The position numbers and the translations under genes were made by a program. A model generated the notes under the pieces. It had not been told where the DNA came from. It worked only from the letters and a program-made list of their open reading frames with translations, and did no database searches. 64,000 nt of DNA, taken from positions 1-64,000 of the forward strand of contig JAOAHO010000001.1 in the NCBI GenBank assembly GCA_026415195.1. The letters run 5' to 3'. Of this stretch, positions 17,975 to 22,348 are shown piece by piece (positions within the stretch are counted from its first letter, which is position 1; each line of letters starts with the position of its first letter). The stretch is from Bacteroidia bacterium. Lineage in GTDB: Bacteria; Bacteroidota; Bacteroidia; B-17B0; Aurantibacillaceae.

Positions 17975-18343
17975 TTAATTTTTGGTGTATTTTTTCTTAT
18001 ACCTTAAAAAGGTCATGATAGTGATCAAATCTTCCTCCGAGACCAGGGAATCGGGAAGTGCAGATTCATGCTTTTGATTGGATATTCTTAAAGCGTATCC
18101 TTTCAGTTGGTCTTCGGTAAAATCCGGTACCATTTTTTTTCTTCCTGCATTTACATAGTGGCATTTAAGGCAATTTGCCGCATACAGATTTTTTCCCCTG
18201 TTCCATTGCTCGGCATATTGTTCTTTCACATGTGGAAGCATTTCTTTCGGAAACTCCGGTTCAACAAAGAATTTTCTGCTGCAACACGTCAGAAACAGCA
18301 TTACAATTAGATATTTAATATTCACCATGTATTTTTCTTTCAT
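17975..18343 (-). CDS. Small c-type cytochrome, probable lipoprotein
   Basis: 122 residues. The start at 18343 (MKEKYMVN) overlaps the upstream peroxidase frame by 29 bases; ATG at 18328 is also possible. Hydrophobic stretch IKYLIVMLFLTCCS looks like a lipoprotein signal ending in Cys. One heme site, CLKCH, lies near residue 58-62 after NLYAANC; a distal methionine may be in KKMVPDFT. It should be a periplasmic or outer-membrane-anchored electron carrier, plausibly the redox partner of the diheme peroxidase encoded just upstream. No closer family assignment. Confidence 0.82.
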   Translation of the reverse strand: MKEKYMVNIKYLIVMLFLTCCSRKFFVEPEFPKEMLPHVKEQYAEQWNRGKNLYAANCLKCHYVNAGRKKMVPDFTEDQLKGYALRISNQKHESALPDSLVSEEDLITIMTFLRYKKKYTKN

Positions 18344-18914
18344 TAAGTTCTTTTATTTTAGATTTAGGCAAGTTTTGCGGTGATGAAATGTCCGGAATTT
18401 TTTCGTCAAGGGTTTTTAAAAATTCAATGAGGGCTTGCTTTTCATCACTGGTAAGGTGCAGGGAGTCGGGTGGAATGGTTTGATTTTCAAGATTAAACTT
18501 TTTGCCGGCTCCCCCTCCCGAGTCATAGAAATCTATCACTTCTTCAAGGGTTTTAAAAATTCCGTTATGCATGTATGGAGCGGTTCTTGTGATATTTCTG
18601 AGCGAAGGGGTACGATGTGCCCTGAGGGTTTGATTAGCAGGATTGACCTTATACCTGCCGCTGTCGGATGTGGGTAGGTGAGGATTAAGCTTATCGGGAG
18701 TCCCCAATACTTCAAATTCGGAAGAAATATAAGGCGGCTTAACACCATTAAATTGTGGAAGAAAATGACAGGTAGCACAGCGGGCTTTTCCCATGAATAA
18801 ATTAAATCCTTTTTTTTGATCTTCGTTAAGATCTGCCTTACCTTCCATGCATTCATCAAAAAACGAATAATGCATGGAAAATCTTGTGTAATAAAAAATA
18901 ATTGCTGATCCCAC
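18315..18914 (-). CDS. C-terminal part of the split peroxidase (heme 2)
   Basis: 199 residues if started at the GTG at 18914, but that GTG is simply Val434 of the full frame (RHVGSAI), so it is unlikely to be a true start. It holds the second heme site CATCH, LRAHRTPSLRNITRTAPYMHNGIFKTLEEVIDFYDSGGG, the family's calcium and heme environment, and a C-terminal tail rich in Lys. No signal peptide of its own. Confidence 0.6.
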   Translation of the reverse strand: MGSAIIFYYTRFSMHYSFFDECMEGKADLNEDQKKGFNLFMGKARCATCHFLPQFNGVKPPYISSEFEVLGTPDKLNPHLPTSDSGRYKVNPANQTLRAHRTPSLRNITRTAPYMHNGIFKTLEEVIDFYDSGGGAGKKFNLENQTIPPDSLHLTSDEKQALIEFLKTLDEKIPDISSPQNLPKSKIKELNERKIHGEY

Positions 18915-18977
18915 ATGCCTGATATCGGGCTCTGGATAGGCAGGCGTTAATTTACAAACGGATTTAAGTGTTTTTTT

Positions 18978-20213
18978 TTATTCAGGGCAACTCAGGATTT
19001 TATTCATCACATCCTGAATTCGTGCATTCATTTCCTCTTTGTTTTGAATTACGGAAAGAAATTGTTCCATCAGATCCAGGTGCCTTCCGTCCCACATGAT
19101 TAAATGCTGGAAGGGTGCACCCATGAGGTCGGGGCTGTTCCTGGATAGGAAACCGGTTTGGGTAAAGTTCAGTGCGGAAGATCGGCTGTTATCCGTGAAA
19201 AACTGATCCGGGCGGTGGCAGGATGAACAACTTCGCTTGTTGTTCCCCGACAAAATGGGATCGGCAAAAAGCATTTCACCAAATTGATAAATCTTGTCTA
19301 AATCCTCTTTTTTGGTTACGGAAGAAAAAATTCCTTTTGTATTCTGTGCATAATAAAGGTTTTTACTGAAAATGCTTTTACTGTGATTATTTAAAGAATA
19401 ATCTATTAGTTGTTTTGATTTCAATTGATGGCTTTGAATAAACACCTGGTTTAATGAAAACAAGGGTACAACAAATCTTTTAATAAAACCGTAATGATCA
19501 AAATTTTCGTAGTTATTATGATTTCCTAACCACTTGATCGAATTTTCAACTAAAGAATGGAATTCAGGAAGGTAATGAAGCCCCGTGGTTTGTTCATACA
19601 ATTGAACTTGTTTTTTGAATTCCGTCAGTGAAATTTTCAGTTCAGGCAAAATCCTTCCTTCATCTGCATTTTCAAAGCCAGTGGTATATAATGTTAACAG
19701 GTTTAGTATGAATAAACGTGCGGCAAAGGGAAAATATTCAGGTTTGTTGATTTCAATGATAATGGTATCGTGCAGGTATTTTTTTAAATCCTTATCCAAA
19801 TCTTTTGCCCATTCTCTGATTTTCTTAAAATCAGGTTGAGTTTCATTCAACCCTTCCTGTATCAGAAAAAAACCTTTTCCTTCCCTACGATAGGGCTTTT
19901 CATGTTTTTCGAAAACTTCTGTTTCCCATTCCACTTCCAGTGGTCCGTTGATTTTCCTGTATAAAACCGGTTCCGAATAACGAAGAAAAATATCAATGTG
20001 TTTTAATTTGTTTCTGCATTCAATGATTTGATTTCTAATTTTTTCTTTTTTTAAATCGGAATTATGCAACAGTTGTTGCATTTTTTTAATCTCATTTTCC
20101 AAATCAAAAATGTTGTTCCTAAAATAATCACATAAGTTTTGTTCAATTTCCGTTCTTGTAAACGACAAGCCAATAAAAATCAAAAAGACATAGATTCTAT
20201 TCTTGCCGTTCAT
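18978..20213 (-). CDS. N-terminal part of the split peroxidase (heme 1)
   Basis: 411 residues. Signal-peptide-like start (RIYVFLIFIGLSFT), a long helical region with NGPLEVEW typical of the extended peroxidase family, then FGEMLFADPILSGNNKRSCSSCHRPDQFFTDN with the first heme and FQHLIMWDGRHLDL. It ends abruptly at SCPE because of the TAA. As an independent product it would lack the second heme and the peroxide site. Confidence 0.7.
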   Translation of the reverse strand: MNGKNRIYVFLIFIGLSFTRTEIEQNLCDYFRNNIFDLENEIKKMQQLLHNSDLKKEKIRNQIIECRNKLKHIDIFLRYSEPVLYRKINGPLEVEWETEVFEKHEKPYRREGKGFFLIQEGLNETQPDFKKIREWAKDLDKDLKKYLHDTIIIEINKPEYFPFAARLFILNLLTLYTTGFENADEGRILPELKISLTEFKKQVQLYEQTTGLHYLPEFHSLVENSIKWLGNHNNYENFDHYGFIKRFVVPLFSLNQVFIQSHQLKSKQLIDYSLNNHSKSIFSKNLYYAQNTKGIFSSVTKKEDLDKIYQFGEMLFADPILSGNNKRSCSSCHRPDQFFTDNSRSSALNFTQTGFLSRNSPDLMGAPFQHLIMWDGRHLDLMEQFLSVIQNKEEMNARIQDVMNKILSCPE

Positions 20214-20221
20214 ACATATAA

Positions 20222-20246
20222 TTAAAAAGCCCGGATATACCGGGCT
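20222..20246 (-). terminator. Rho-independent terminator of the 20267-22348 gene
   Basis: AGCCCGG/CCGGGCT perfect 7-bp stem (20228-20234, 20240-20246), loop ATATA, followed on the minus strand by TTTTTAAT. It separates the PhoX-like gene from the peroxidase gene, so the latter needs its own promoter or read-through. Confidence 0.75.
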
Positions 20247-20266
20247 GAGTTTGTTATTTGTTATTT

Positions 20267-22348
20267 TTAATGATTGATTAAAACTTTTTCTGTAATCTTA
20301 TCGGACACTTTTATTAAGTAAGTTCCTTCGGGTAAAGATGCGACATTAAGTTCATAAGTACCATCACCTGTTTTAATAAAATCTTCTGGCCCTTTAACTT
20401 GTTTTCCGTTGATGTCGAACATTTTAAGCCGTATTATGTATTCAGGTATTTTTGAAATTTGTATGGAGACTTTAGTTTGGGCGGGATTAGGCACAATTTT
20501 TATTTCGGGTTTTTGTGTTATTTCTTGAATGCCTGTAGTGGTAAAGGTATTTGCAGAAATTCTGAAAGTATAAGTGTTCTCGTCGTAGTCATTGTTTTTA
20601 ACGGTTACATCAGCACTGAAGGTTCCCACGGAATTGGCGCTGAAATTGATGGAAAAGAATTGTGAAGAATTAGCATTTACGGTAAAGGGAATGGCAGGGG
20701 CAGCCAGAGTATAATGTGTGGCAGAAGAGCCGGTAATGGTTATGGAATTGACCACCAACGGACCCGGGCCTGCATTTTGTATCAGGAAAGTATTGGTTTT
20801 GATGGTGCCGACTTGCACATTTCCGAAATGAGTGTTGTTTAAGGTTGAAGTAGTAGTAGCATTGATGCTGATAGAATTATTGTTACCACTTAGGCTGATT
20901 TCAGGGCTGGAAGTATAAGTGTCCGGATTGAAAAGCAATAGCATCTGCCCGCCTGATACCATAGGTGAAGGCAGGGAGTAGTGAGCCTGATCGACAAACA
21001 AAAACCAACCCGGACCTAAGATTCCCTGCATATCCACTATACCTGAACTTTCTTCGTCCTGAGTTAGAAATTGCGGTCCGCTGTTCACAAACCTGGCGGG
21101 ATCGTGTACGGCAATTTCTTTAAGTAAGTCGGTGGCAATATCATATTGCCATATTTTGGCAGCATAGGTTTGATTTCCCGGATCTTCCTGCAATAAAATA
21201 TGTCCGTAATAATCAACGGTCATATTATCGAGCATTTTTTGTCCTTCCGTGCCGTCAAGCAAGGCGGTTATGGTCCCGCCGTTTTGTGGATTGTTAATGT
21301 CATTAAATTGCAGTTTCCATAACCTGCTGGGCGAATTGAATGAATTGGTAGTAACAAAATAGAAAACATTCGGATTATGCGGATCCCATGCTCCGTCTTC
21401 CGGACGCAAAAAATTCGTCACTCCCATGTTATTGCTCATGGTGTTCAGGGAACTTCCACTGATGGCCGAAACATTGCCAAGATTAACAAGAGAAAACGTG
21501 GTGTTGGGTGCAGGCACCGAACTGCTGGACTCATTGACCATTCCTGTAACGGCCACTCCGTAAAGTGTTCCGTTTGTCAGTCCGGCCTTATCCACATCAG
21601 TTCCAGAATTTGTTTTGGTGCCCACATAAACATATACCTGTCCGGGCGATGCATCGTCCATGCCTATCAGTATGGTCTGATTACTTTTGTATGGATTGGC
21701 CACATAGTTTTCCCAGGAGGCCCTGCCAAGACGTGGTAATTGGTAAGAATGTCCGGTTTGGGGGCCTGTTGCAATATGAGCAAATGCTCTTCCTTCACTG
21801 CCGATTTCTTCTCCGTTTATAAATATCCTGTTCTGAGTACCCATGCCTGTCTGGTCGTTGTAAAAAGCGCTTACAGGAGCCAATTCGGCAGCACAAAATC
21901 TGCCAAAAGCAATCAAAGTTGAATTATTTGATGCATTATACATGGTATATCCGCTGCCATTCCATAAATGCACATTCTGAATTAAATCGGAACCCGCAGT
22001 GACGGAATAGTTGCTTTTATTGATTATCCATTTTGATACAAATGCCCCTGGTTGGCCATGGGCGTGCACAGTTCCGGATGTCGAGGAAAATTCATGATTT
22101 AATAACATGGTGAAAGTTCCGTCACCGTTGTCATAGGCACCCAGGCCGTCGGCAATGCCGCAAAAAGTATATCCCCCCACTGACTGGCCGACCGTCAGGA
22201 GAGAAACTACCGTTACATTTGAAGCGGATAGGATTAAGTAAGGGGAGGAATTTGATGAAGGTCCGGTAATCACTGCAGTGTTTGTTACCTGAGCTTTGAA
22301 TGAAAGCATCAAAGCCAATGCAGATAATAAGATAAAATTGTTTTTCAT
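20267..22348 (-). CDS. Secreted PhoX/DUF839-like protein with T9SS type A sorting domain
   Basis: 693 residues. Signal peptide at 1-19 (LLSALALMLSFKAQ). Residues about 25-480 resemble the DUF839/PhoX propeller: GIADGLGAYDNGDGTFTMLLNHE, FINGEEIGSEGRAFAH, ILIGMDDASPGQVYVYVGTK and PEDGAWDPHNPNVFYFVTT; PhoX enzymes are calcium-iron phosphatases but I cannot confirm their metal cysteine here. Residues about 495-605 are an ASH/choice-of-anchor D domain (NTHFGNVQVGTIKTNTFLIQN). The last 75 residues are the Por secretion tail (IVPNPAQTKV ... LPEGTYLIKVSDK), which directs export by the T9SS. Ends at its own terminator. Confidence 0.75.
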   Translation of the reverse strand: MKNNFILLSALALMLSFKAQVTNTAVITGPSSNSSPYLILSASNVTVVSLLTVGQSVGGYTFCGIADGLGAYDNGDGTFTMLLNHEFSSTSGTVHAHGQPGAFVSKWIINKSNYSVTAGSDLIQNVHLWNGSGYTMYNASNNSTLIAFGRFCAAELAPVSAFYNDQTGMGTQNRIFINGEEIGSEGRAFAHIATGPQTGHSYQLPRLGRASWENYVANPYKSNQTILIGMDDASPGQVYVYVGTKTNSGTDVDKAGLTNGTLYGVAVTGMVNESSSSVPAPNTTFSLVNLGNVSAISGSSLNTMSNNMGVTNFLRPEDGAWDPHNPNVFYFVTTNSFNSPSRLWKLQFNDINNPQNGGTITALLDGTEGQKMLDNMTVDYYGHILLQEDPGNQTYAAKIWQYDIATDLLKEIAVHDPARFVNSGPQFLTQDEESSGIVDMQGILGPGWFLFVDQAHYSLPSPMVSGGQMLLLFNPDTYTSSPEISLSGNNNSISINATTTSTLNNTHFGNVQVGTIKTNTFLIQNAGPGPLVVNSITITGSSATHYTLAAPAIPFTVNANSSQFFSINFSANSVGTFSADVTVKNNDYDENTYTFRISANTFTTTGIQEITQKPEIKIVPNPAQTKVSIQISKIPEYIIRLKMFDINGKQVKGPEDFIKTGDGTYELNVASLPEGTYLIKVSDKITEKVLINH

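Follow-up and report, generated by a model that had tools for sequence, protein, structure and literature searches.

Introduction

For Salmonella pseudogenes, a single inactivating mutation has been reported in 346 of 378 cases, and in 131 of those 346 the lesion was a premature stop codon (PMC2916853). Among the diheme peroxidases, MauG and BthA are reported to have Tyr-His ligation (PMC6405878). The imelysins and the peroxidase of Leptospira have been described as products of separate genes. Here we describe a locus of a Bacteroidia bacterium at which an in-frame TAA interrupts the gene for a diheme peroxidase of the MauG/bCCP type that carries a predicted imelysin-like domain in front. The locus lies in a 64,000-nucleotide stretch of one contig, referred to below as the window.

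An in-frame stop between two heme motifs

The features of the locus are collected in Table 1. The internal TAA sits between two CXXCH motifs, one on each side, and both parts of the gene share one frame. The extent of the frame and the position of its stop between the heme motifs had been given in the original prediction, and both were borne out by the reading frame. The same prediction held that the two halves lie in one frame and that the bases from the stop to the next possible start encode family-like sequence. Alignment to relatives confirmed this, since the codons from the stop to the GTG at 18914 align with the peroxidase family. Altogether, 219 open codons follow the stop, with 51-60% identity to relatives (n = 12). 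Because these codons align with the relatives, and because the same cytochrome gene adjoins the frame as it does there, the open frame past the stop is not a product of chance. The stop is located about 19 kb from the end of a contig of 101 kb. A frameshift around the stop was considered and rejected, as both other frames hit stops within a dozen codons.

Table 1. Features of the interrupted peroxidase locus (window coordinates)
Feature	Position	Strand	Remark
Full interrupted frame, MauG/bCCP-type diheme peroxidase	18315..20213	-	633 codons, with both TAA codons (internal and terminal) counted
In-frame TAA, codon 412	18978..18980	-	Tyr in 48/48 aligned relatives
Nine-T run, plus strand (A9 in the mRNA)	18971..18979	.	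Changed base at the run edge
Open frame before the stop (411 aa) with the imelysin-like domain, the first heme motif and the invariant Glu394; N-terminus signal-like by eye	18978..20213	-	
Imelysin/EfeO-like helical domain, residues 25-265	19419..20141	-	Fold match only
First heme motif CSSCH, residues 329-333	19215..19229	-	
Second heme motif CATCH, residues 479-483, past the stop	18765..18779	-	
Open frame past the stop, 199 aa when started at GTG	18315..18914	-	By eye, no export signal
Intact monoheme cytochrome c gene	17975..18343	-	Overlaps the peroxidase frame at its 3' end; second ATG possible at 18328
PhoX-like protein with T9SS sorting tail	20267..22348	-	Upstream of the peroxidase

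Domain make-up of the encoded enzyme

When the internal TAA is read through, residues 309-460 match PF03150 (CCP_MauG) across the stop (E 1e-31, 111.1 bits against a cut-off of 25.6), and with its two CXXCH motifs the read-through frame belongs to this family. The upstream part alone still matched CCP_MauG at 3e-24, with the match ending inside the domain. Scores against the NCBIfam models for MbnH (TIGR04039; 138.3 bits, cut-off 362.85) and MauG (TIGR03791; 128.5 bits, cut-off 443.85) fell far below the respective cut-offs. A structure predicted for the read-through frame from 49 sequences (mean pLDDT 86.8, pTM 0.86) consisted of two parts. In this model, residues 25-265 resembled 7wgu (Z 19.8, rmsd 3.0, 223 aligned residues), and the rest of the protein resembled 1iqc (Z 22.6, rmsd 2.9 over 293 residues). 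At an E-value of 0.01, no imelysin family appeared among the Pfam matches of the 49 sequences.

To the alignment of relatives (A1), 48 of 49 candidates were admitted, the contig-end fragment L019 being excluded, and 47 of its columns are invariant. Tyr563 is found in all 48 relatives, and its counterpart in chain 1iqc is Met258. By analogy with the known enzymes, this Tyr suggests that the family may use a MauG-type ligation. Residue 374, which we take to be the interheme Trp position, is Trp in only 5 of the 48.

The domain boundaries bear on whether the interrupted gene might still work in pieces, either through the upstream product, whose imelysin-like domain is complete, or through both pieces acting together. 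The stop does spare residues 25-265, the whole of that domain. It falls, however, in the middle of the CCP_MauG domain, none of the 48 relatives in A1 is split at codon 412, and the reopened frame, which starts from an internal GTG, shows no signal peptide by eye. As the downstream frame thus lacks an export signal, a split enzyme is unlikely, and we regard a functional split or truncation as highly improbable. The start codons past the stop, first the GTG at 18914 and then ATGs at 18875, 18848 and 18794, were each considered as an independent start for the second half, and by eye none of them is followed by a signal-like stretch.

Codon 412 in relatives

All 48 relatives in A1 carry Tyr at codon 412, and this position also aligns with Tyr in five solved peroxidase chains. 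At the codon level, where 29 relatives were tried and 28 could be read (L010 was dropped by the motif filter), the Tyr was encoded by TAT in 16 cases and by TAC in 12. In the search for relatives, at least 68 of 80 genomes gave a match at an E-value of 1e-10. Among the matches listed, the best eight outside the window's own genome had 43-50% identity and none came from a genome of the same genus; further stops were flagged in relatives whose matches reach residues 618-631. A second search, which yielded 53 loci with a best identity of 48%, found no copy from the same species elsewhere. Finally, a class-wide search of 395 genomes returned 86 rows in 74 genomes, the window copy included, and none of the 85 other matches had a stop before residue ~602. 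Five other flagged stops were fetched and aligned: one lies at residue 609 and four lie outside the aligned range, which ends at 602-605, so that no mid-gene stop is among them.

The comparison with the same locus in relatives, which the original prediction had proposed as a check, thus revealed an intact gene with Tyr at the site, the best relative being about 50% identical. Of the three readings offered in that prediction, a nonsense mutation, read-through and a consensus error, it supports the first, in that the relatives show a Tyr codon lost through substitution. From the sequence comparisons, the best explanation is probably a real and very young nonsense mutation at codon 412, to which we assign a probability of roughly 0.62.

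Read-through had also been proposed; occasional decoding of UAA would then yield the full enzyme at a low or regulated level. The good conservation of the region past the stop, with changes in 4 of 74 conserved columns, fits this proposal. The stop itself is not conserved, however, as it recurs in none of the 85 other matches, and TAA ends more window ORFs than either other stop: in a mechanical set of 59, TAA occurs 32 times, TGA 24 times and TAG 3 times. This usage also led us to reject a change of the genetic code. Among the 33 tRNAs found in the genome, which is 93.45% complete, none has an anticodon that reads UAA, and a suppressor tRNA was likewise not among them. The absence of the stop from relatives, the prevalence of TAA in the window and the lack of a UAA reader among the 33 tRNAs together make read-through very unlikely. 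For enteric bacteria, read-through of TAA has been reported at ~1e-5 to 9e-4 (PMC6764699).

State of the gene past the stop

Compared with 12 relatives, the window protein is changed in 4 of 74 conserved columns past the stop versus 11 of 87 before it. Past codon 412 there is no further stop or frameshift, and the second heme motif is intact. In the whole frame, 291 single-base changes could each create a stop, and no other such stop is present. This corresponds to a neutral divergence since inactivation of at most ~0.03 per site, a rough 95% bound from a Poisson estimate that assumes equal base changes. The lack of decay in the part past the stop means that the lesion is either very young or a one-base sequence error.

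Before the stop, changed conserved columns are more numerous in the window protein than in any other of the 13 sequences (11/87, followed by L009 with 7/83); past the stop this is not so, and it is tied with L009 (4/74). Relaxed selection before the stop arose was considered on this basis and rejected. As judged from these columns, the peroxidase gene was already somewhat divergent, and this divergence gives no date for the stop.

The absence of further decay suits a sequence error equally well. In that case the gene would be intact, and the TAA would reflect an error of the consensus or the assembly, with base 18978 miscalled at the edge of the T-run, or else an allele of the minority that entered the consensus. 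All but one base matches the state of the intact relatives, the changed base comes straight after seven T on the plus strand, and the genome is a draft of 116 contigs, 93.45% complete. Bases bordering a homopolymer are places where base calls can fail. Against an error, the change is a substitution and not a run-length error, and five other nine-base A/T runs sit within intact ORFs of the window. Furthermore, of nine same-frame neighbour pairs in the window only this one reads as a split gene (one other pair was checked by Pfam), so the window sequence looks otherwise clean. The predominance of single lesions among the Salmonella pseudogenes, with premature stops common, also speaks for a real mutation. 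Weighing these points, we consider a sequence error or a minority allele possible but somewhat unlikely.

The form that such an error would take is narrower than first proposed. The original prediction placed the stop beside nine A; a run of nine is correct, but its last two bases are the stop codon's own, leaving an adjoining run of seven. A wrong length of the A-run cannot explain the stop, because an insertion or deletion would shift the frame and T-A-A would persist. The error version is therefore a miscalled base at the run edge, and the run-length form is excluded by the frame, which is the same on both sides. Slippage or phase variation of the run was rejected on the same grounds, since T-A-A persists however long the run, down to a length of two.

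Neighbouring genes and paralogues

A cytochrome c homologue adjoins the peroxidase gene in 23 of 27 loci. The remaining loci are L154 and L160, where the contig or the fetched stretch ends within 283 bases, and L162 and L166. In the window the partner cytochrome gene is intact, as had been predicted. Over positions 17975-22348, the gene order is PhoX-like T9SS protein, diheme peroxidase and monoheme cytochrome c. A PhoX-like homologue is found immediately upstream and co-directional in 10 of the 27 loci. The 17 others include five with little upstream contig (L092, L094, L154, L158 and L159); in L036 the PhoX-like gene is divergent, in L093 it lies downstream, in L163 and L165 only the sorting tail matches, and the rest have no match or a distant one. 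In L093 (6351-9122), the gene downstream of the cytochrome encodes a fusion in which a phytase-like esterase domain (PF13449) precedes the PhoX-like one. A role for the PhoX-like protein as a partner or substrate is speculative.

Among the matches listed, three further ones in the window's own genome are free of a stop. The match on contig C48 (35% identity) is a full-length paralogue, and those on C83 and C33 have a single domain. On C48 (locus L086, 3262-4578 and 4739-6634), the intact paralogue adjoins a 438-residue frame with six CXXCH motifs. Because the genome keeps these other diheme peroxidase genes, a loss of the enzyme holds for the local partner only. The earlier statement that the likely enzyme of the cytochrome is lost can be kept for the local partner, but not genome-wide, and the other peroxidase genes could cover the loss.

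Discussion

The course of events that we favour is a simple one. A single substitution would have made Tyr codon 412 into TAA in an otherwise intact gene for a MauG/bCCP-type diheme peroxidase. Translation would then stop after residue 411, and the exported protein would carry the imelysin-like domain but only part of the first heme domain. The stop cuts off the second heme domain together with the end of CCP_MauG, and with TAA at codon 412 the two heme domains are no longer in one translated chain. The second heme domain would either not be made, or be made in the cytoplasm from an internal start, where c-type heme would remain unattached. Since this domain would be missing or lack its c-type heme, the peroxidase activity of the window copy would be lost, while the partner cytochrome gene stays.

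It is also conceivable that the stop is used, with an exported imelysin-like protein of 411 residues as the main product and a small amount of full-length diheme peroxidase, made by rare UAA read-through, as a second one. If true, one gene would give two products serving the same cytochrome; we consider this extremely unlikely. Judged by its sequence, the phenomenon is most likely ordinary, a pseudogene with a single nonsense mutation and not a new mechanism. The finding as such matters little and mainly serves as a warning about one annotated gene, which is either broken or misread.

Less ordinary, and more useful than the stop itself, is the protein family to which the gene belongs, together with its cytochrome. 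Structure prediction points to a Bacteroidota family of ~630 residues in which a MauG-type diheme peroxidase carries a fused imelysin/EfeO-like domain at its front. No paper naming this kind of fusion came up in a literature search combining imelysin with di-heme cytochrome c peroxidase or MauG.

How the locus relates to known systems can be stated for each of its aspects. With the pseudogenes of Kuo and Ochman 2010, as they are described there (PMC2916853), the interrupted gene shares a lone premature stop that removes more than 20% of the frame, an otherwise intact gene and conserved neighbours; unlike them, it is known from one draft assembly alone. Its residues 25-265 have the predicted fold of the EfeO/imelysin-like proteins (7wgu, 3at7 and 4ecg), from which they differ in having 14% identity and in being fused to a diheme peroxidase. 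Compared with the bCCP/MauG peroxidases (1iqc, the MbnH-like 6e1c, the MauG structure 3l4m and BthA, 6nx0), the window gene is interrupted by a stop and has an imelysin-like domain of ~260 residues in front, whereas the two CXXCH motifs, the invariant Glu394 and the Tyr at position 412 are traits that its family and these enzymes have in common.
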